Source: Thermogutta sp.
GTDB taxonomy: Bacteria; Planctomycetota; Planctomycetia; Pirellulales; Thermoguttaceae
Reading direction: 5' to 3'
Length of the DNA stretch: 12,904 bases
NCBI GenBank assembly: GCA_012798155.1
Contig: JAAZNR010000959.1
Coordinates: forward strand, 1 to 12,904
The notes under the pieces are model-generated. The model was not told the DNA's origin. It searched no databases and worked only from the letters and a program-made list of their open reading frames with translations. The translations under genes and the position numbers were made by a program. Below, piece after piece: positions 251 through 12,529 of the stretch (positions are counted from its first letter, which is position 1; the number at the start of each line of letters is the position of its first letter).

Positions 251-300
251 GGATCACCTTTTCAGTACGTGTTGTTTCCCTGAATTGCAGCGATGGGGCA

Positions 301-319
301 ATTAGGCCTGCCGCTCCCT
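301..319. repeat. Second copy of the queC 3' end (19-bp direct repeat with 435-453)
   Basis: Nineteen bases, ATTAGGCCTGCCGCTCCCT on the plus strand, are identical at 301-319 and 435-453. Read on the minus strand both encode the same ending, RERQA followed by TAA. Similarity extends with mismatches to about 36 bp (DRHYGRERQA here, DRYPARERQA in queC). The two copies bracket the family B element at 337-435, so the 3' end of queC looks partly duplicated around the insertion. Confidence 0.8.
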
Positions 320-336
320 CCCGTAATGGCGATCAG

Positions 337-435
337 TTTTACTGCGCAGAATAAAAGTTCGGCAAACTGGGGTATGTAGATTTGCGAGTCTGCGTACGGG
401 CGGTAATCCGGTTTCGGCGACCATGCGCAGTAAAA
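337..435 (-). mobile_element. Family B inverted-repeat element, copy 1 (MITE-like, 99 bp)
   Basis: A 99-bp non-coding element bounded by perfect 12-bp inverted repeats, TTTTACTGCGCA at 337-348 and its complement at 424-435. Its reverse complement aligns over its length with copy 2 at 6928-7027 (roughly three quarters identical by eye, including GTCGCCGAAACCGG against ATCGCCGAAACCGG near one end). The right flank is TTAG (436-439) and the left flank TCAG (333-336), so a 4-bp target duplication is only imperfect here. The queC stop codon (complement of TTA at 436-438) lies in the right flank. The element is too short to encode a transposase and lies between queC and queD. Confidence 0.8.
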
Positions 436-1161
436 TTAGGCCTGCCGCTCCCTTGCGGGATATCGATCGGCGTAATAGACGGTGCCGTCGGGCAGTCCGG
501 CCTCGCGAAAGGCTCGGCGGCGTTCGGCGCACTTGTTACAGAATCCGCAATGCAAGCCCTTCCGGGGGGCGATGCACGAGAACGTCTTGTCGAGGGGTAA
601 GTCCCGCGCTTCGCGCATCCATTCTCGCTTGCTGAGGCCGGAGAGGGGACGCAGAATTCGCACTCTCTTCGGGCCGTAGGCCGCGAGACATGCTTCCATG
701 GAATCAAAAAACTCCGGTGCCGCATCGCCAAAGGGGTTGGTATCCAAGACGCCGATGGCCATCCGTTCGAAGCCGTGCAGTTGGCACCACACGCCCGCCT
801 TGGCCAGCATAAACAGGTTGCGCCCCGGCAGGTAAACCGCCTCGTCGGGCGAGGCCCTATCGGGGACCGCTCTGCCGGTCAGGCTCCAATGATCGGGCCA
901 CAGGTCGCGTACCGTCATCTCCAGAACCACCACAGGGTCGGCGATCGGCGCGAAACAAACGGACACTTCTCGGACCGCGGCGAATTCCTCGGCCTCCCAA
1001 TTCAAGCCGCACCGGACGTAGATCGGTTGTAGCCGACCGGCGGGGCATTTTTCTCTCGCGCGGCGTGCCAAAAGGCCGAGAACGATGGTGCTGTCCAATC
1101 CGCCGCTCATCAAAACGGCAACGGGCGAATCGATCTCCCATCCTTCACGTCCGTCGTTCAT
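436..1161 (-). CDS. queC: 7-cyano-7-deazaguanine synthase (QueC-like, variant substrate loop)
   Basis: QueC is a cytosolic ATP-dependent enzyme that turns 7-carboxy-7-deazaguanine into the nitrile preQ0. The N-terminus carries the PP-loop AVLMSGGLDST. The C-terminus has the four-cysteine zinc site C-x8-C-x2-C-x2-C in FSCIAPRKGLHCGFCNKC, followed by AERRRAF as in the family. The ATG at 1161 gives 241 residues, close to the usual 220-240, and puts the PP-loop near residue 15. The frame stays open to a GTG at 1224, but the added 21 residues are basic and unlike family N-termini, and neither start has a strong Shine-Dalgarno. Instead of the YSGYPDCRP-type loop of standard QueC, it reads GVLDTNPFGDAAPEFF, which marks a divergent branch. 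The stop codon lies at the border of a family B element, and queD follows. Confidence 0.92.
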   Translation of the reverse strand: MNDGREGWEIDSPVAVLMSGGLDSTIVLGLLARRAREKCPAGRLQPIYVRCGLNWEAEEFAAVREVSVCFAPIADPVVVLEMTVRDLWPDHWSLTGRAVPDRASPDEAVYLPGRNLFMLAKAGVWCQLHGFERMAIGVLDTNPFGDAAPEFFDSMEACLAAYGPKRVRILRPLSGLSKREWMREARDLPLDKTFSCIAPRKGLHCGFCNKCAERRRAFREAGLPDGTVYYADRYPARERQA

Positions 1162-1617
1162 AAGCCCCAACCGTGCGGGGAGGTCATCGCGCCGGCATTT
1201 GTTTTTTCTCTTTGTGCTTTCCACAGGCGCGCCCGGCTGAAGAAAAGCCCTCGGCGAACATCATGCCCCCCGCGAACATCATGTATTGTTGAAAATCAAA
1301 AACGATTGGCAAGCCCCGGACGTCGCCGATGAGACGCCGTGTGCCGGCTGACTTTCGGACGGGCGTCGAGACGGATTCACCGGATTTCGGGGATCGGCCC
1401 GCGAAAAACCATGCTTCCCAAGGCGGCGAAGCTTTTTGCCATGCGTTCCCATTCCGTCCGGACAAGGTACAATTCGTACGGAGGAGATAAGCTTCTTGCG
1501 GCGGAAGGTCGTGAGAAGGGTTGATTGTCTCCGTTCGGGGTTGGGGGCGACAAGTCGCGGAATGTTGAGAAGAGCGGATCCGGCGGCGGCCGGGGTTGCG
1601 GGGAAGGAGCCTTCGAC
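1162..1617. other. Divergent intergenic region between queC and recR
   Basis: About 455 bp separate the divergent queC and recR. No convincing gene is visible. It holds a 12-bp direct repeat, GCGAACATCATG, at 1254-1265 and 1272-1283 (period 18). A strong Shine-Dalgarno-like GGAGGAG lies at 1480-1486, 9 nt before a TTG at 1496 that opens a 44-codon frame ending at 1630, just inside recR. A -10-like TACAAT is near 1469 but no matching -35 was found. The outward promoters of both genes must lie here or further upstream; none could be placed with confidence. Confidence 0.5.
1602..1609 (+). promoter_or_regulatory. Ribosome binding site that sets the recR start
   Basis: GGAAGGAG ends 8 nt before the GTG at 1618. 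This is the best-spaced Shine-Dalgarno in the frame and agrees with the usual RecR N-terminus, so it decides against the ATG/GTG-type starts further upstream. Confidence 0.75.
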
Positions 1618-2217
1618 GTGGCGGAATTGACGGAATCGGTAAGCCGATTGATCGAGGAACTGACCAAGTTGCCCGGCATCGGCCGGAAGTCGGCCGAACG
1701 CATCACTTATCACTTGTTGCGGGTCAGCCGCGAGGAGGCGCTGGCCCTGTCGGAGGCCATACGGACGGTCAAGGAAAACGTCCGCCATTGCACGATTTGC
1801 TACAATCTAGCAGAGGATGAACTTTGCTCGATTTGCCGCGATGCGAGCCGCGACCGGTCATTGCTATGCGTCGTGGAGCAACCGCGAGACTTGATTGCCA
1901 TTGAACAAACCGGTCTTTACCGGGGGCTTTACCATGTTTTGCTGGGACGCCTTTCCCCATTGGACGGGGTTACGCCCGATCAGCTTACGATCTCGGATTT
2001 GGTGCGTCGGGTCAAAGAGGGAGGGATACGCGAGGTCATCATGGCCACGAACCCTACTGTTGAGGGGGACGGGACGTGCCTCTACATTTCGAATCAGTTG
2101 GCCGATCTCGACGTTACGATAACACGTTTGGCGAGGGGGATTACGCCCGGCAGCGTGATCGAGTTCGCGAACCCCGAGGTCTTGGCGGACGCCTTTGCCG
2201 GACGGCGAAGACTATGA
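1618..2217 (+). CDS. recR: Recombination mediator RecR
   Basis: RecR works with RecO (and RecF) to load RecA on gapped single-stranded DNA. The 199-residue product has the full architecture: a helix-hairpin-helix with LPGIGRKSAERI at residues 18-29, a four-cysteine zinc finger (C58, C61, C70, C73, in CTIC and CSIC), a Toprim domain from about residue 81 (LCVVEQPRDLIAIEQTG), and the C-terminal TPGSVIEFANPEVLADAF. The GTG start matches the usual length of about 200 and the family opening of a few residues before the first helix. The frame is open upstream to 1525, but that extension is Gly/Ser-rich and not RecR-like. The common partners ybaB and dnaX are not upstream; queC is there instead, divergently. 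rpoN follows after 217 bp on the same strand. Confidence 0.96.
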   Translation: MAELTESVSRLIEELTKLPGIGRKSAERITYHLLRVSREEALALSEAIRTVKENVRHCTICYNLAEDELCSICRDASRDRSLLCVVEQPRDLIAIEQTGLYRGLYHVLLGRLSPLDGVTPDQLTISDLVRRVKEGGIREVIMATNPTVEGDGTCLYISNQLADLDVTITRLARGITPGSVIEFANPEVLADAFAGRRRL

Positions 2218-2434
2218 CGTGAAGACTATAACCTATGGTCAAGATTCGGGGTTGTTTCGGCGACGGGAGGGTTTGCTGAATCGGAATTGGGCCGGTTGGG
2301 AGGCGTTCTCCAAATCCAAGGGTCGATTCCGCGTCCTCTCTAACGGAATCCTTGCCGGGGTTGTGCCGGGGTGCGGCACGCGGCCGGATGAGACGATTTG
2401 AGACGGTTGCACGCTAAAGGGAGATGAGTGCGTC

Positions 2435-3934
2435 ATGCGGTTTTCCCTCGGTCAAGAATTGAGGCAAGTTCAGAAGCAGATACTTGCTCCCCGCATGATC
2501 CAGTCCATGGAGATCCTGCAGCTCCCTCTCCAGCGGCTGGAGGAACGCATTCAGCAGGAGATGGTCGAAAATCCTTTCCTGGAGTTGGCGGCCGATCCGC
2601 CCGATGCCGACGAGGAGCCGGACGCGGCTCAGGAAGAGGAGCCTCGCGTCGAAGTTCGGTCCGATTTGGAAAAGGAATTGGTGATCGATGAGAGCAGTTC
2701 CGAAGAGTTTGAACGTTTGGAAACGTTGACGGAAGAGAATCCGGAGGTCTTCGAAGACGACATTTCGCGGCCGTCCAGCAACCGGATGGAGGAACTGTCG
2801 GATCGCTACAACGACATGATGGCCAACGTGCCGTCGCACGAACCGACGCTCCATGATCACCTCATCGAGCAACTGGCGGGCCTGGATATTTCGCCCGAGG
2901 TCCGGGCCATGGCCGAAATGCTGATCTACAGCTTGGACGGCGACGGTTACCTGAAGACCGATCTTCGCGATTTGTTGGGGCCTGACGCCGCGGAGGAAGA
3001 CCTGAAAGTCGCCGGGCAGGCCTTGGCGGTGGTGCAGCAGATGGATCCGGCGGGAGTCGGGGCCAGGACGTTGAAGGAGTGTTTGTTGCTTCAACTGGAC
3101 GCCGAGCTTCCCCATTACAAGGAATTGGCGACCCTCATTCGCGAGCATTTGGAGGATGTGGGCGAGAATCGCATCCCGCAAATCGCCAAGAAACGCGGTT
3201 GGACCGTGGATTTTGTGGAGGAGTTGATCGGCGAGCTACGGACGCTGAATCCCAAGCCCGGCGCGCAATTCGGCGGCTCCTCGGTGCCCAACGTCGTCCC
3301 CGACGTTTACGTGGAAGAAACGGAGGATGGGCGGTTCGTTGTGCAATTGAAGGACGACCACCTTTCTCGCTTGGGAATCAACGAGGAGTACCGGCGGCTC
3401 GTGGAATCGCGTCGCTCGGCCAAGCAGGACCGAGAGTTCTTCCGTCGCAAATTGACCCACGCGCAGTGGCTGATCGAGGCCGTCCAGCAACGTCGCAACA
3501 CCCTGCGGAAAGTGGCCCAGGCGATCGTGGACCATCAGCAGCGGTTTTTGCGGGACGGGCCGGAATACATCGAACCTCTGAAAATGCAGCAGATCGCGGA
3601 CGAGGTGGGCGTGCATGTCACGACTGTCAGCCGCGCCGTGGACGACAAATGGATCGAGACGCCGCGGGGTATTTTCCCCCTCAAGAGATTTTTCCGCAGC
3701 GGAACGGTCGGACAAGACGGTCAGGAGATCGCCTGGGACAAGGTCCGCTCCATGCTGCAAGAGATCGTCGCGGCGGAAGACAAGCAGAATCCCTTGACCG
3801 ACGAGGACCTGGTCGCCGAGCTGGCGCGTCGCGGGGTCAATGTCAATCGCCGGACCATCACCAAATACCGCCAGGAGTTGGGCATCCCCAGCTCTCGCCA
3901 GAGGAAAGATTGGAGGCAGGCCGCCAAGTCATGA
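2435..3934 (+). CDS. rpoN: RNA polymerase sigma-54 factor RpoN
   Basis: Sigma-54 directs RNA polymerase to -24/-12 promoters that need an ATP-driven enhancer-binding activator. The 499-residue product shows region I (about 1-50, Gln/Leu-rich, with QELRQVQKQILAPRM and MQSMEILQLP-like spacing), an acidic region II of about 70 residues, the core-binding domain (about 125-330, with MDPAGVGARTLKECL and LNPKPGAQF), a helix-turn-helix (about 382-420, MQQIADEVGVHVTTVSRAV), and the RpoN box NRRTITKYRQELGIP from residue 471. The box fits the ARRTVAKYRE consensus with small changes. The ATG at 2435 is preceded by AAAGGGAG about 11 nt upstream. The acidic linker is rather long and Asp/Glu-dense. A histidine kinase gene follows on the same strand, but no sigma-54 activator gene is present. 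Confidence 0.97.
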   Translation: MRFSLGQELRQVQKQILAPRMIQSMEILQLPLQRLEERIQQEMVENPFLELAADPPDADEEPDAAQEEEPRVEVRSDLEKELVIDESSSEEFERLETLTEENPEVFEDDISRPSSNRMEELSDRYNDMMANVPSHEPTLHDHLIEQLAGLDISPEVRAMAEMLIYSLDGDGYLKTDLRDLLGPDAAEEDLKVAGQALAVVQQMDPAGVGARTLKECLLLQLDAELPHYKELATLIREHLEDVGENRIPQIAKKRGWTVDFVEELIGELRTLNPKPGAQFGGSSVPNVVPDVYVEETEDGRFVVQLKDDHLSRLGINEEYRRLVESRRSAKQDREFFRRKLTHAQWLIEAVQQRRNTLRKVAQAIVDHQQRFLRDGPEYIEPLKMQQIADEVGVHVTTVSRAVDDKWIETPRGIFPLKRFFRSGTVGQDGQEIAWDKVRSMLQEIVAAEDKQNPLTDEDLVAELARRGVNVNRRTITKYRQELGIPSSRQRKDWRQAAKS

Positions 3935-4188
3935 ATTCCTCTCAGCCCATGGCTCGGTCGCGGCGGCACGGAAACCGGGAGGTCGGCGAGCCGGGAGATT
4001 TCTCTCCGATCTTTCGAGCGGCTCGCTTTCGATCGGCCTCGTGAGGGCGTAAAATAGGCGATCGGCAAAGGGGCGAGCATCACCCCGGGAGGCCGTCTCC
4101 CTCGTGATCGCGTGGGAGGAATCCCGCCTTGTTGCCCGCCGCCGTCGGATTGAAGAATCGGTGCGATTCCGCCGCATTGCGGGGCCGT

Positions 4189-4194
4189 GGGAGG
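4189..4194 (+). promoter_or_regulatory. Ribosome binding site that sets the kinase start
   Basis: GGGAGG ends 7 nt before the GTG at 4202. It overlaps the alternative GTG at 4187, which has no such site, so 4202 is preferred; the FHA domain then begins at once (MPSLFVIRG). Confidence 0.7.
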
Positions 4195-4201
4195 TTCTTT
4201 C

Positions 4202-5926
4202 GTGCCTTCGCTGTTCGTGATTCGAGGCAACGATCAAGGCAGCCGATTTGAGCTGGCCGCTACGGCGGTGAGTATCGGCCGGGACTCGGGCAACCGCATC
4301 CAGTTGCACGATACCGAGGTCTCTCGCCGGCACGCCGAAATTCGTCGCGTCGATGATCGTTACCTGCTGGTCGACCTGAACAGCTCCAACGGGACTCTGG
4401 TCAACGGCAAGCCCGTCCGGGAACACTTCTTGAATAGCGGCGACCAGGTCCAGGTGGGGCGGACCCTGATGCTCTTCACGCGGCCGGCCAACGAGTCGCA
4501 AGCCGTCGCCCCGTGGAACGTGGCTTTCACCTCTCAGGAGGAAGGCGACCGCTCGGAGATCATCAGCGCCGTCAAACCGCAAGAGGGGAACCGTATCTTC
4601 GCGGCCTCCGAGCCGGGCTACGATTCCTGGCCGGCCCGCGCCAAACGCAACCTCGAAATCATGTACCGCACGGCGCTGGCCATCAGCCACACCGTGGATA
4701 TCGACCAGCTCCTCAACCGCATCATGGATTTGATCTTTGAATGGGTGGAAGCCGACCGCGGTTGCATTTTGCTGGTCGATCCGGACACCAATCAACTCGT
4801 CCCCAAAGTGCGGCGGAGCCGGCAGGGGGCGGCGGAACGCTTGGTGATCAGCAAGACGATCCTGGATTACGTGCGAGAACGAAACGAGGGCGTGCTGACC
4901 AGCGATGCGCGGCACGATCAGCGATGGGATTCCGGCGCGAGCATCGTGCAGGCGGGAATCCGGGAGGCCATTTGCGTCCCCATGAAGGGACGTTACGACG
5001 TCGTCGGCGTGATCTACATCGACACTTCCCTCTCGCCGCAAGACATCCTGGCCCGCGGCACGACCAACAAGTTCACGCAAGATCATCTGATGTTGATGGT
5101 CGCCATTGCCCACCAGGCGGCTCTGGCCCTGGAGGATACGCATTATTATTCGGCCATGGTGCAAGCCGAGCGTCTGGCCGCGATCGGGCAGACCATCGCC
5201 ATGCTTTCCCACCACGTGAAGAACATCCTCCAGGGTATTCGCGGCGGCAGCTACCTGATCGAGATGGGATTGAACCGCCACGACGAGGAATTGATCCGTA
5301 AAGGCTGGACGATCGTCGAGAAGAATCAGAACAAGATCTCCGGCCTGGTGATGGACATGCTGACGTTCAGCAAGGAACGGGAACCGGACCTGCAAGTTGC
5401 CGACATCGGCCAGGTGGTTCATGACGTCGTGGAGCTGATGCAGCAGCGAGCCGCGGAATTCGAGGTTCAGCTTACTCTGGAATCCGTCGACGAGATACCG
5501 AAGCTGGTGTTCGATCCCGAGGGCATCCATCGCGCCGTGCTGAACTTGGTTACGAACGCCATCGATGCCGCGGCGGAGAGGCCGGAAGATCGGCGCGTTC
5601 GAGTGGCGCTGACCTACGCTCCCGAAGCCGCCCTGGTGCGGATCCAGGTTTCCGACAACGGCGGCGGTATCCCGCCGGAATTGAGGGATAAGATCTTCAG
5701 CCCCTTTGTTTCGCAGAAAAAGGGGAGCAAAGGGACCGGGCTGGGGTTGCCCGTCAGCCATAAAATCGTGCAGGAGCACGGCGGCCGGATTACCGTCCAA
5801 AGCGCCCCCGAGACCGGTACGACCTTCGTCATCGAACTGCCGGCGGTTTTGCCCCAGGAAACGCAGGGTTCGCCGGAGGAGACTTCGGGCGACACCTCGG
5901 CCGCGGCCGAGCCGTTTGCCTTATAA
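4202..5926 (+). CDS. FHA-GAF sensor histidine kinase (orphan, cytosolic)
   Basis: This is a soluble 574-residue histidine kinase. An FHA phosphothreonine-binding domain spans about 1-92 (IGRDSGN, SRRHAEI, NSSNGTLVNG). A GAF domain covers about 150-315. A HisKA dimerisation segment with the H-box MLSHHVKNILQGI follows (likely phospho-acceptor H337), and then a HATPase domain with N-box NLVTNAIDAA, G1 DNGGGI and G2 GTGLGLPV. The last 20 or so residues are a Glu/Ser/Ala tail. No signal peptide or membrane span is seen, so the input is probably intracellular: a phosphoprotein through FHA, a small ligand through GAF. No response regulator is adjacent. The location after rpoN suggests, without proof, an NtrB-like link to a sigma-54 activator elsewhere. 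The TAA stop lies inside the target duplication of a family A element. Confidence 0.94.
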   Translation: MPSLFVIRGNDQGSRFELAATAVSIGRDSGNRIQLHDTEVSRRHAEIRRVDDRYLLVDLNSSNGTLVNGKPVREHFLNSGDQVQVGRTLMLFTRPANESQAVAPWNVAFTSQEEGDRSEIISAVKPQEGNRIFAASEPGYDSWPARAKRNLEIMYRTALAISHTVDIDQLLNRIMDLIFEWVEADRGCILLVDPDTNQLVPKVRRSRQGAAERLVISKTILDYVRERNEGVLTSDARHDQRWDSGASIVQAGIREAICVPMKGRYDVVGVIYIDTSLSPQDILARGTTNKFTQDHLMLMVAIAHQAALALEDTHYYSAMVQAERLAAIGQTIAMLSHHVKNILQGIRGGSYLIEMGLNRHDEELIRKGWTIVEKNQNKISGLVMDMLTFSKEREPDLQVADIGQVVHDVVELMQQRAAEFEVQLTLESVDEIPKLVFDPEGIHRAVLNLVTNAIDAAAERPEDRRVRVALTYAPEAALVRIQVSDNGGGIPPELRDKIFSPFVSQKKGSKGTGLGLPVSHKIVQEHGGRITVQSAPETGTTFVIELPAVLPQETQGSPEETSGDTSAAAEPFAL

Positions 5927-6098
5927 CCGGACTTTTGCAAATTGTGGTGACGAGTTCTCGTCCGCCTTGGAAGAGGGTTATGGTGGGGGCAATTAGCCGC
6001 GAAAACGGCTTGCCGTGATTGCCTAACTTTACCAACCCCTCACCCACTGCCCCTCTCCCAGAGGGAGATGGGAGTAGTTTGCAAAAGTCCAGTTATAA
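5921..6098 (+). mobile_element. Family A inverted-repeat element, copy 1, with TTATAA target duplications (MITE-like)
   Basis: The element proper is 5927-6092 (166 bp). It starts CCGGACTTTTGCAAA and ends with the complement of CTGGACTTTTGCAAA, so the 15-bp terminal inverted repeats differ at one base. It is flanked on both sides by TTATAA (5921-5926 and 6093-6098), a 6-bp target-site duplication. The left TTATAA contains the stop codon of the histidine kinase gene. Inside, GGCAAT and ATTGCC can pair around 5980-6026, and CCCTCTCCCAGAGGG near 6052 is a small hairpin. Copy 2 at 6715-6880 has the same length and orientation, with about 14 mismatches by hand. No open frame resembles a transposase. 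Confidence 0.9.
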
Positions 6099-6359
6099 CA
6101 ATCGTCCCCCAGTAGATGGCATCCGGCCGCCGACGTTGCCCCGGCCGTCCGTAGTTCCAAGGTCGCATCGCAAGCGGCTTCACCGCTGCCGTCGGCCGTG
6201 CCCCGGTAGTCTTGTCCGCCGGGGTAGGTACAATATCGATTTTCGCCTCATGCGTACGAGCGCGGATTGTCTTCGCGAAGGCCGGGCAGGCGATCGTACT
6301 CATATTTGGGGCGGGCGAACGTATTCATTTGCAATTTTGAATTTGAAGGAGACTGAACG
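6099..6359. other. Leader region of the dodecin gene
   Basis: About 260 bp lie between the family A element and dodecin. No ORF looks coding. CCCCGG and CCGGGG around 6210-6230 could form a 6-bp stem with a 12-base loop. The final 60 bases are AT-rich compared with the surroundings and probably carry the dodecin promoter, but no clear -35/-10 pair was found. Confidence 0.3.
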
Positions 6360-6566
6360 ATGGCGGAAACCGTTTTCAAGAAGATCCAGATCGTCGGTAC
6401 GTCCCCCGTTTCTTTTACCGATGCCGCCGCCAAGGCCGTGGCCAAGGTCGCCGAGACCGAGAAAAATGCGTCCTGGTTCGAGGTTGTGGAACTCCGGGGC
6501 GCCATTGCCGACGGCAAGGTTTCCCAATATCAAGTTACCGTGAACGTCGGCTGCAAGCTCGAGTGA
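6360..6566 (+). CDS. Dodecin family flavin-binding protein
   Basis: Dodecins are small proteins that assemble into hollow dodecamers and bind flavins such as riboflavin, FMN or FAD in stacked pairs; they are thought to store or quench flavins. The 68-residue product matches the family in length and layout: an N-terminal strand VFKKIQIVGTSPVSF, one helix DAAAKAVAKVAETEKNA, the flavin-stacking tryptophan in SWFEVVELRGAI, and the last strand YQVTVNVGCKLE. The ATG is preceded by AAGGAG with 8 nt spacing, in an AT-rich leader. It is a single-gene unit: family A elements in direct orientation lie on both sides, so the gene sits inside a potential composite unit about 960 bp long. No flavin enzyme gene is adjacent. 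Confidence 0.94.
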   Translation: MAETVFKKIQIVGTSPVSFTDAAAKAVAKVAETEKNASWFEVVELRGAIADGKVSQYQVTVNVGCKLE

Positions 6567-6708
6567 GACGCATTGCTCAGCGGAGACCCCAGGCGAGACT
6601 CCGGCGAACCGCGGGCGGTAGCGAGGGCGAGAGCGTTGCCCCTCGTGCGGTGGGATTGGTTGGCTGTTCCGGTACAGATAGCGTCGGCTGGGGGCGGAAG
6701 CCCGGACG

Positions 6709-6886
6709 TTCCAACTGGACTTTTGCAAATTGTGGTGACAAGTTCTCGTCTGCCTTGGAAGAGGGTTATGGTGAGGGCAATTAGGCGCGAAAACGGCTTG
6801 CCGTGATTGCCCAACTTCACCAAGCCCACACCCGCTACCCCTCTCCCAGAGGGAGAGGAGAGCAGTTTGCAAAAGTCCAGTTCCAA
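6709..6886 (+). mobile_element. Family A inverted-repeat element, copy 2, with TTCCAA target duplications (MITE-like)
   Basis: The element proper is 6715-6880 (166 bp), with perfect 15-bp terminal inverted repeats CTGGACTTTTGCAAA. It is flanked by TTCCAA at 6709-6714 and 6881-6886, a perfect 6-bp target duplication different from that of copy 1, which shows independent insertion. It is a direct repeat of 5927-6092, about 92 percent identical by hand alignment without gaps. It lies 143 bp after dodecin, in a non-coding stretch, and 41 bp before the family B copy. Confidence 0.9.
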
Positions 6887-6923
6887 GTAACGATGCGGCG
6901 GTCCGCCTCGTTCGCAGAGCGGC

Positions 6924-7031
6924 TTAGTTTTACTGCGCAGGATCGCCGAAACCGGCTTACCGATCTTACGCAGACTCACAAAGCTGCGTACGCCCGTTTG
7001 CCCAGCTCCTTATCCTGCGGAGTAAAATTAG
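6924..7031 (+). mobile_element. Family B inverted-repeat element, copy 2, with TTAG target duplications
   Basis: The element proper is 6928-7027 (100 bp). It begins TTTTACTGCGCA and ends with the complement of TTTTACTCCGCA, one mismatch in 12. Perfect TTAG flanks at 6924-6927 and 7028-7031 form a 4-bp target duplication. It is inverted relative to copy 1 at 337-435. The right TTAG supplies the stop codon of the hydrolase gene (complement of TTA at 7028-7030), just as copy 1 does for queC. It is non-coding. Confidence 0.85.
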
Positions 7032-7735
7032 GCATTCCGGCGGACAAATGGGTTGCTCGTCTTTTCGCGGCCCACAGTCGTGGCCGGTCCGTGTCCCGGC
7101 AAGAGCAGCGTCTCATCCGGGAGAGAATACAGTTTTGCGCGGATCCCCTGGGCTAGCAATTCGAAATCCCCGTCAGGGAAGTCGGTCCTGCCGACGCTGC
7201 CGGAGAAGATGACGTCGCCGACGAAAACCCGCCAGGGAGTCCCTGTTTTCAGGATGAAGACGACATGTCCTGATGAGTGCCCGGGGATTTCTCGGACTTG
7301 CAGCTCCAACCCCGCCACGCTCAGGGCTTCGCCGTCGGCGACCAGGATATCCGCCGCGGGGCTGACGATGGGAAATCCGAAGTCATGGGACAAATTCAGT
7401 TTGGGATCCGTTAGCTTCTCCGCCTCGTTTTTGCCCGCGATGATGGGGCAATCGGGCCAATGCGCCTTCACGGATGCTATCCCGGCGATGTGGTCCGCGT
7501 GGCCGTGCGTCACCAGCACGGCCTTGGGGGTCAGGTGATCGGATTGGAGGCGTTCGACCAATGTGGCGGTGTCGAAACCGGGATCCACCACGAGGCAATC
7601 ATCGCGGCCCGACAACGCCGCCACGTACGCGTTTTGTCCAAAAAGCTCCGAAACGACCGTCCAGATACGCACTCGTTCGCCGTCCACGCACGGGTTCCTT
7701 TTGATGAAATCGGGAAAATGGGGCCTGTGGCCCAT
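7028..7735 (-). CDS. Glyoxalase II-like metallo-beta-lactamase-fold hydrolase
   Basis: A single-domain metallo-beta-lactamase-fold enzyme of 235 residues, most like the short glyoxalase II/YcbL group that hydrolyses thioesters such as S-lactoylglutathione. Metal ligands visible: THGHADH at 76-82 (H77, H79, D81, H82), GHSSGH with H153, D174 in FVGDVIFSGSVGRTDFPDGD, and H215 in LLPGHGP. The end GREKTSNPF corresponds to the family's substrate-side basic NPF motif. The longer C-terminal domain of classical GloB is absent, so the substrate is uncertain. The ATG at 7735 has no clear Shine-Dalgarno; a GTG at 7672 (VRIWTVVSELFG) would match the usual N-terminus as well. The stop codon lies in the TTAG flank of a family B element. 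The next gene is divergent. Confidence 0.9.
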   Translation of the reverse strand: MGHRPHFPDFIKRNPCVDGERVRIWTVVSELFGQNAYVAALSGRDDCLVVDPGFDTATLVERLQSDHLTPKAVLVTHGHADHIAGIASVKAHWPDCPIIAGKNEAEKLTDPKLNLSHDFGFPIVSPAADILVADGEALSVAGLELQVREIPGHSSGHVVFILKTGTPWRVFVGDVIFSGSVGRTDFPDGDFELLAQGIRAKLYSLPDETLLLPGHGPATTVGREKTSNPFVRRNA

Positions 7736-11073: not shown

Positions 11074-11186
11074 TTTTAACACGACAGCGCTAAGTTGCCT
11101 ACTTCCTGCGACCAGTGGAGCTGCTATCGCTGCTACCGCCCCAACTGATCGTGGTTCTCTCCGGACTCAGCGCCGTCGTGTTAAAA
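11074..11186. mobile_element. Family C inverted-repeat element (113 bp, single copy here)
   Basis: Terminal inverted repeats of 21 bp match at 19 positions: TTTTAACACGACAGCGCT plus AAG at 11074-11094, and the complement of TTTTAACACGACGGCGCT plus GAG at 11166-11186. The 71-bp interior has no open frame of note. No target duplication is evident in the flanks. It sits upstream of the LysM gene and downstream of the ureohydrolase gene, and as RNA would form a 21-bp stem that could end or stabilise the ureohydrolase transcript. It could be a MITE or simply a long-loop hairpin. Confidence 0.6.
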
Positions 11187-12242: not shown

Positions 12243-12301
12243 GAACCGCCCTTACCTTGTCGTAACGTGGCCGTTTAGGCGTCTGCTCGGTCTGGCATTG
12301 C

Positions 12302-12393
12302 AACGCGGAGGCGCAGAGGCTGTTTTTGAAACGCAGAGGTCGCAGAGGGCGCGGAGGAGGAAACGGTGGCCGCAACTCTGCGTTCTCCGCGTT
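12302..12393. repeat. Degenerate inverted repeat of the CGCAGAG type
   Basis: AACGCGGAGGCGCAGAG at 12302-12318 faces CTCTGCGTTCTCCGCGTT at 12376-12393, its complement apart from a two-base difference. Between them the motif CGCAGAGG recurs (near 12332 and 12341) as does GCGGAGG (near 12350). It lies 60 bp upstream of the ureohydrolase start, in non-coding DNA. Similar purine-biased CGCAGAG repeats are dispersed in several bacterial genomes. Confidence 0.6.
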
Positions 12394-12529
12394 TCCACCC
12401 TTATCATTCCGCGTAGCCGTCCCTGGTCCGCTGGGAGCCGAAAAACGTAGCCCACCCATTCACTCCCGAAGGCGGCAGTCCCATCATCGCGGGTTTCTTC
12501 GCAAGCATTGACACAATCCCCGTGAACGG

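Follow-up and report, generated by a model that had tools for sequence, protein, structure and literature searches.

We found that copies of family B, a 100-nt mini-transposon in a Thermogutta genome, occupy stop codons well above the rate expected from the distribution of their target sites. Twelve of 35 copies flanked by the YTAR target (34%) lie exactly at the stop codon of a gene, compared with 27 of 348 unoccupied non-coding YTAR sites (8%; Fisher p=3.6e-5). This pattern probably has a joint origin, in which IS5-type MITEs combine three factors: a target motif that itself holds a stop triplet, the removal of harmful insertions, and a moderate bias toward the 3' ends of genes. The question was raised by the window, that is the whole 12,904-nt stretch of DNA that was analysed, where two copies each of families A and B lie near or against the following genes.

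333..336: TCAG, outer flank of B1, one mismatch to TTAG
337..435, minus strand: B1, family B copy 1, a 99-nt MITE adjoining the queC stop
436..439: TTAG, inner flank of B1, containing the queC stop (436-438, minus-strand TAA)
436..1224, minus strand: queC, 7-cyano-7-deazaguanine synthase-like (ORF; Pfam QueC, E=6.8e-24)
4202..5926, plus strand: FHA-GAF sensor histidine kinase (Pfam FHA, GAF, HATPase_c), stop TAA at 5924-5926
5921..5926: TTATAA, left target duplication of A1, with the kinase stop inside it
5927..6092, plus strand: A1, family A copy 1, a 166-nt MITE
6093..6098: TTATAA, right target duplication of A1
6360..6566, plus strand: dodecin gene, between A1 and A2 (Pfam Dodecin, E=1.4e-22)
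6709..6714: TTCCAA, left target duplication of A2, intergenic
6715..6880, plus strand: A2, family A copy 2, a 166-nt MITE, intergenic
6881..6886: TTCCAA, right target duplication of A2
6924..6927: TTAG, left target duplication of B2
6928..7027, plus strand: B2, family B copy 2, a 100-nt MITE adjoining the hydrolase stop
7028..7031: TTAG, right target duplication of B2, containing the hydrolase stop (7028-7030, minus-strand TAA)
7028..7735, minus strand: metallo-beta-lactamase-fold hydrolase, glyoxalase II-like (Pfam Lactamase_B, E=4.7e-26)

A preliminary description of this DNA had placed three of the four insertions on stop codons. This is true of the window, but as a statement about the genome it is too strong, since only about one third of B copies and one ninth of A copies (5/43) lie at stops. 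The kinase stop does fall within the TTATAA flank of A1, where TAA at 5924-5926 forms the end of 5921-5926, and the queC and hydrolase stops fall within TTAG flanks, at 436-438 in the inner flank of B1 and at 7028-7030 in the right flank of B2. TTAG had been assigned to the flanks of both B copies; it is present on both sides of B2 and on the inner side of B1, but the outer flank of B1 (333-336) reads TCAG. Both B-associated stops were correctly given as GCC TAA, although the C or T before TAA is dictated by the YTAR target and is not an independent observation. The fourth insertion, A2, lies away from stops, as the description implied, in the intergenic sequence between the dodecin and hydrolase genes and with TTCCAA on either side.

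Several observations bear on whether the stops adjoining the elements are native to their genes. The genes themselves look genuine: Pfam domains were found in 11 of the 12 genes that end in a B target (QueC, MBL-fold hydrolase, hemerythrin, RcpC/CpaB, MMPL, short-chain dehydrogenase, HSP70, ThiG, LeuA, DUF2752 and class II aldolase) and in four of the five that end in an A target (kinase, asparagine synthase, ArgJ and endoribonuclease L-PSP). The ArgJ profile alignment reaches the last residue of its protein. In a relative (L224), the orthologue of the hydrolase lies in a stretch lacking a B end and has its stop at the same codon position. The kinase of this relative stops two codons before the window kinase, as read by eye, and exact conservation of the kinase stop is unsupported. 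In its best segments the window kinase shares 88% identity with the kinase of a public MAG catalogued under Blastopirellula marina and 72% with a Thermogutta sp. kinase, which puts the window near Thermogutta.

The genome surveyed is a fragmented assembly of 4.29 Mb in 988 contigs. It contains at least 66 copies of the 166-nt family A with exact ends, and at least 55 copies of the 100-nt family B when up to three mismatches are allowed in the ends. A first look had yielded 100 candidates for family A; 65 A copies and 57 B copies were examined together with their flanks. Family A has terminal inverted repeats of 15 bp (CTGGACTTTTGCAAA) and a 6-bp target duplication with a consensus near TTNNAA that is perfect in 37 of 65 copies. 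Family B has terminal inverted repeats of 13-16 bp (TTTTACTGCGCAGGAT; in B1, TTTTACTGCGCAG) and a 4-bp target duplication that is perfect in 27 of 57 copies and contains one mismatch in a further 19, eight of which are copies of one compound insertion. Base counts of the 27 perfect duplications give YTAR as the B consensus target. At 166 nt and 100 nt, both elements are too short to encode a transposase, and A and B are MITE-like, non-autonomous mini-transposon families. Eight B copies with identical flanks revealed a third family, C, which is a 171-nt compound element that contains B, has the ends GAGCATGTCTTCAAATTAG and duplicates a 3-bp TNA target. Some 130 bp separate one C end from a fragment of an IS5-family transposase (NCBIfam NF033580, 89 bits, below the cut-off of 110).

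The search of this fragmented assembly uncovered no autonomous element bearing the ends of A or B. The PF01609 profile matched only three loci, none of them with A or B ends, and the search for an A-ended autonomous partner covered these three loci. Six B-type ends were followed by a different base; the four that were inspected proved to be B copies or fragments, and the remaining two belong to B1 of the window and to a known copy on C802. Family B had no match in 59 relatives (at most 15 candidates scored per genome), in 395 other genomes of the same order (two candidates scored per genome) or in plasmids. It therefore appears to be species-specific, and the counts below come from one genome and have no replicate.

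The sequence of the target has a direct consequence for the position of B within genes. YTAR is self-complementary and always finishes with TAA or TAG, so that each site holds a stop triplet on either strand, in one frame, a property that the preliminary description had overlooked. Because of this triplet, YTAR is impossible in the stop frame inside a gene and possible at the gene end, where it is available whenever C or T precedes a terminal TAA or TAG. Of 182 called gene ends, 39 qualify. Following insertion at such an end, the gene-proximal copy of the target retains the stop, and the encoded protein is unaltered.

For the comparison with free target sites, the empty site of each copy was modelled by joining its flanks, and genes were called with a codon-pair model trained on this genome, a simple custom caller in place of standard annotation. 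In the window this caller recovers the queD, queC, recR, rpoN, kinase, dodecin, hydrolase, DUF1571, YpsA-like and arginase-family genes. From the 57 B copies we removed seven further copies of the compound insertion, 11 with more than one mismatch in the duplication and one with a short flank, leaving 38 clean copies, of which 12 lie exactly at a stop codon, 26 are intergenic and none is in a gene. Two of the 11 copies removed for mismatches lie beside an A copy, L122 at a stop and L022 in a called gene. The 35 clean copies with YTAR on at least one side were used for comparisons with the null, which consisted of all unoccupied YTAR sites across 30 readable random contigs and the flanking sequence of copies (n=546; 198 in genes and 348 non-coding). 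Of the non-coding null sites, 27 coincide with stops, 26 lie in the 50 bp following a stop and 48 at 51-150 bp, while 97 are no more than 150 bp from a start and 150 are farther away. The same classes hold 12, 7, 6, 5 and 5 of the B copies, with none in genes.

The excess of B at stops persisted in a series of variants of this comparison. It remained after weighting for local GC content (p=1e-4), when only intergenic gaps below 1000 bp (p=1.5e-4) or below 500 bp (p=2.4e-3) were considered, and when sites far from genes were omitted (p=1.1e-3). Without the two window copies that had raised the question the value was p=4e-4, and p=2.5e-3 when in addition the null was restricted to the random contigs. 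Across four gene-calling settings, Fisher p ranged from 7e-4 to 5e-3. Chance was thus rejected as the cause under several nulls. Base composition was likewise rejected: B sites are somewhat richer in GC (0.65 versus 0.58 within 12 bp), and the excess survives the GC weighting. Genes missed by the caller, which covers 77% of the 30 random contigs, could inflate the null, but the restriction to short gaps keeps p at 2.4e-3. Mapping the copies against free target sites, as had been suggested in the preliminary description, therefore shows a genuine stop excess for B (12/38 versus 27/348). Family B is not distributed without regard to stop codons, yet most copies lie off stops (26/38 for B, 38/43 for A).

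The other families gave smaller counts. Removing 19 A copies without a clean duplication and three with short flanks from the 65 left 43, of which five lie at stops, compared with 2.5% expected from the target weight matrix (p=0.005; p=0.02 without the window copies). Two of the excluded A copies lay in called genes. Among three genomes of the same genus, only G003 contained matches to A. We sampled 33 regions from 42 matches there, giving 30 rows with one copy represented twice, and 17 copies of this diverged A family were counted. Two of the 17 are at stops (p=0.07), and one is in a called gene. Family C comprises eight compound copies in total. Of the six with both flanks, two lie at stops, two within 50 bp after a stop and two far away (p=0.06 for stops). 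One copy with a single flank (L107) has a flank that ends in a stop at the insertion, and its inclusion gives 3/7 (p=0.01); another (L108), at a contig end, was excluded. The A, G003 and C counts agree weakly in direction with those for B.

The preliminary description had offered two alternatives, a preference for gene ends and the survival of harmless insertions, and both fit the copy survey. If harmlessness were the only filter, insertion would be random with respect to YTAR, hits in genes and promoters would be lost, and gene ends would be what is left over. This reading accounts for the absence of B from genes (0/35 versus 198/546 in the null), for the absence of clean A copies from genes (0/43 versus 62% expected from the target matrix) and for the near absence of B from divergent gaps (1/29 versus 71/250 in the null). 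The same argument is made for pneumococcal repeats in section 6 of a published study (PMC3049150), the part of that paper on which we draw here. If the filter acted alone, however, sites far from genes should be the safest, yet they hold only 5 of 35 B copies, as against 150 of 348 sites in the null. Because such under-use is not what a harm filter alone would predict, an insertion bias was kept in the explanation. The stop excess also persists when genes and 5' regions are excluded altogether (12/30 B versus 27/251 null, p=1.4e-4). Furthermore, copies at stops are not older than the others, their mean divergence being 0.067 compared with 0.062-0.068 in the other classes; since they are as diverged as the rest, there is no sign of slow selective sorting. 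Family A, finally, shows no avoidance of divergent gaps, which hold 9 of the 36 copies whose neighbours were both called. We regard a filter acting by itself as rather unlikely.

The class counts also indicate what the bias is directed to. Seven of 35 B copies lie within 50 bp after a stop, compared with 26 of 348 null sites (p=0.02), and the ratio of stop to near-3' sites is 12:7 for B and 27:26 for the null (p=0.43). Since the near-3' sites are enriched as well and the stop ratio does not differ significantly from that of the null, the preference is for gene 3' ends, with the stop supplied by the motif. When every 3' site out to 150 bp is considered, stops make up 12/25 for B and 27/101 for the null, a borderline difference (p=0.053). 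A preference for the stop codon itself is thus not supported by the B counts (p=0.43; p=0.053). A bolder reading takes the enrichment near 3' ends as the work of the B machinery, which would actively prefer these ends, for example via transcription or translation termination, with the stop-containing, self-complementary target turning the stop codon into a safe harbour that the duplication restores. It would amount to non-destructive landing by a transposon family with no known targeting protein, and we hold it to be doubtful.

The joint explanation in terms of motif, harm filter and moderate 3'-end bias is the one that we favour. B inserts at a 4-bp YTAR sequence as IS5 does, and where this sequence includes a stop codon the 4-bp duplication holds the stop beside the gene and leaves the protein unaffected. 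The target motif is excluded from the stop frame in genes and present at many gene ends. Insertions that hit genes would be lost, and for B also those between divergent genes. Beyond these two factors, a moderate additional bias would direct copies to the stop and the following 50 bp. This account has no need of a terminator function. We infer from the target motif and from the analogy with family C that an IS5-family transposase moves B. The residual bias toward 3' ends would then reflect insertion rather than a finer form of selection.

The preliminary description had also suggested that the elements might supply a 3' end or terminator to the host genes, in which case copies behind stops would have been retained because their hairpin ends or protects the transcript. 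The position directly behind stops would suit such a domestication, and the window copies have strong predicted RNA folds (z -3.3 to -6.1). One orientation with respect to the gene is commoner, though not significantly so, by 9 to 3 for copies at stops (p=0.15) and by 18 to 8 across all 3' ends (p=0.08). A terminator-like match on the plus strand, at 6908-6922, has its T-run supplied by the left end of B2, with the stem lying outside B2. The folding, however, is expected from the terminal inverted repeats alone. On neither strand of B is the stem followed by a U-tract; the T-run is at the 5' side of the stem. Conserved RNA structure in B is not supported either: in the terminal stem of 45 distinct 100-nt copies, one-sided changes occupy 87 of 720 cells (41 of them still capable of G-U pairing), compared with compensatory changes in 2 of 720. 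A terminator pattern scan returned seven matches, the one at 6908-6922 included, where 8.1 were expected, and the window contains no known RNA family at gathering scores. Together with the lack of an age difference between copies at stops and elsewhere, these results do not support a terminator or 3'-end role of B, and we consider retention for such a role very unlikely. Less credible still is a transposase that recognises hairpin or terminator structure at gene ends: some IS elements do prefer stem-loops, but after GC correction the foldability of empty B sites does not exceed that of null sites (35 versus 311, p=0.64), and their flanks are not more palindromic. The comparison gives p=0.73 when limited to stops and p=0.09, with the null less foldable, when limited to sites in the 50 bp following a stop.

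Elements that duplicate YTAR carry a stop triplet on both strands of the target, and gene ends with this motif are therefore self-sealing landing sites. The target motif of a transposon is thereby linked to harmless insertion in a simple way that can be tested. If the residual bias proves to be an insertion preference, IS5-type elements would offer a tractable case of safe-site finding without a known targeting protein.

Correia and ERIC elements differ from A and B in their ends, hosts and targets. As described in the portions of the literature covered (PMC2229807, PMC10969869), these and other bacterial MITEs resemble A and B in being small, in having terminal inverted repeats and in lying mainly between genes; that same literature yielded no stop-codon statistic for Correia- or ERIC-type MITEs. 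The occurrence of MITEs near gene 3' ends is already known. The combination of a stop-containing, self-complementary target with a measured excess at stops was not found in the covered part of the open-licence literature. The closest relation is to the IS5 family. B duplicates YTAR, as described for E. coli IS5 in the part of the source used here (PMC10359306), and C duplicates TNA and lies near an IS5-family transposase fragment. Unlike IS5, B lacks a transposase, and the search for an autonomous partner of B returned none; the YTAR duplication published in that part concerns the E. coli element. Among pneumococcal repeats, RUP targets contain TA and RUP has been linked to IS630-Spn1, according to the portion of the report consulted (PMC2229807). 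The sections of the pneumococcal survey drawn on here (PMC3049150) describe RUP, SPRITE and BOX as short mobile repeats that are over-represented between convergent genes, with SPRITE near 3' ends and BOX providing the stop codon in 36 genes. BOX, as described there, differs from B in an essential respect: it encodes the stop itself, whereas here the stop resides in the duplicated target, outside the element.

The terminal part of queC with its stop codon (AATTAGGCCTGCCGCTCCCT...) is doubled, with one version on either side of B1, the copy of the 100-nt family B that lies directly after the queC stop (window 300-334 and 434-468). The two repeats are 35 bp long and 83% identical, and their 14-base core had no further occurrence in the genome sequence examined. 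From the sequence, the queC gene end seems to have undergone a small duplication, before or along with the insertion of B1. YTAR, the family B target motif, is depleted in the 30 random contigs that were readable (L142-L201): their 193 kb of readable sequence contain 190 sites, which we estimate to be several-fold under the expectation from base composition.

Several mini-transposons were found to be nested, with the ends of B elements carrying elements of the 166-nt family A that are inserted into or abut them. Another element family, with ends TACTACAGCGCCGGC, was present at three loci; its L081 copy lies at the position of a called stop codon and has an A element nested within it.

Nested A/B pairs and copies with TACTACAGCGCCGGC ends, by locus
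L022 456-719, A/B nested pair
L016 1405-1668, A/B nested pair
L122 335-598, A/B nested pair
L202 1384-1494, TACTACAGCGCCGGC ends, flanks CTAA/TTAG
L081 1478-1761, TACTACAGCGCCGGC ends, flanks TTAC/TTAC
L182 186-310, TACTACAGCGCCGGC ends, flanks CTAA/CTGA

A further inverted repeat lies in the window itself:
11074-11186, 113 nt, 22-bp ends (TTTTAACACGACAGCGCT...), flanked by a LysM-like gene (assigned by eye) and an arginase-family gene

Its appearance suggests a copy of a further mini-element; the genome sequence examined yielded no second one. An intergenic motif, ACGCAGAGG...CTCTGCGTTTC, recurs beside several of the examined insertions (window 12290-12400; flanks on L099, L105 and L109).

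In four genomes of more distant relatives (G005, G006, G007 and G040), family A gave many matches, each confined to ~40 nt within query positions 104-159, which suggests a separate repeat that has this inner stretch in common with A.
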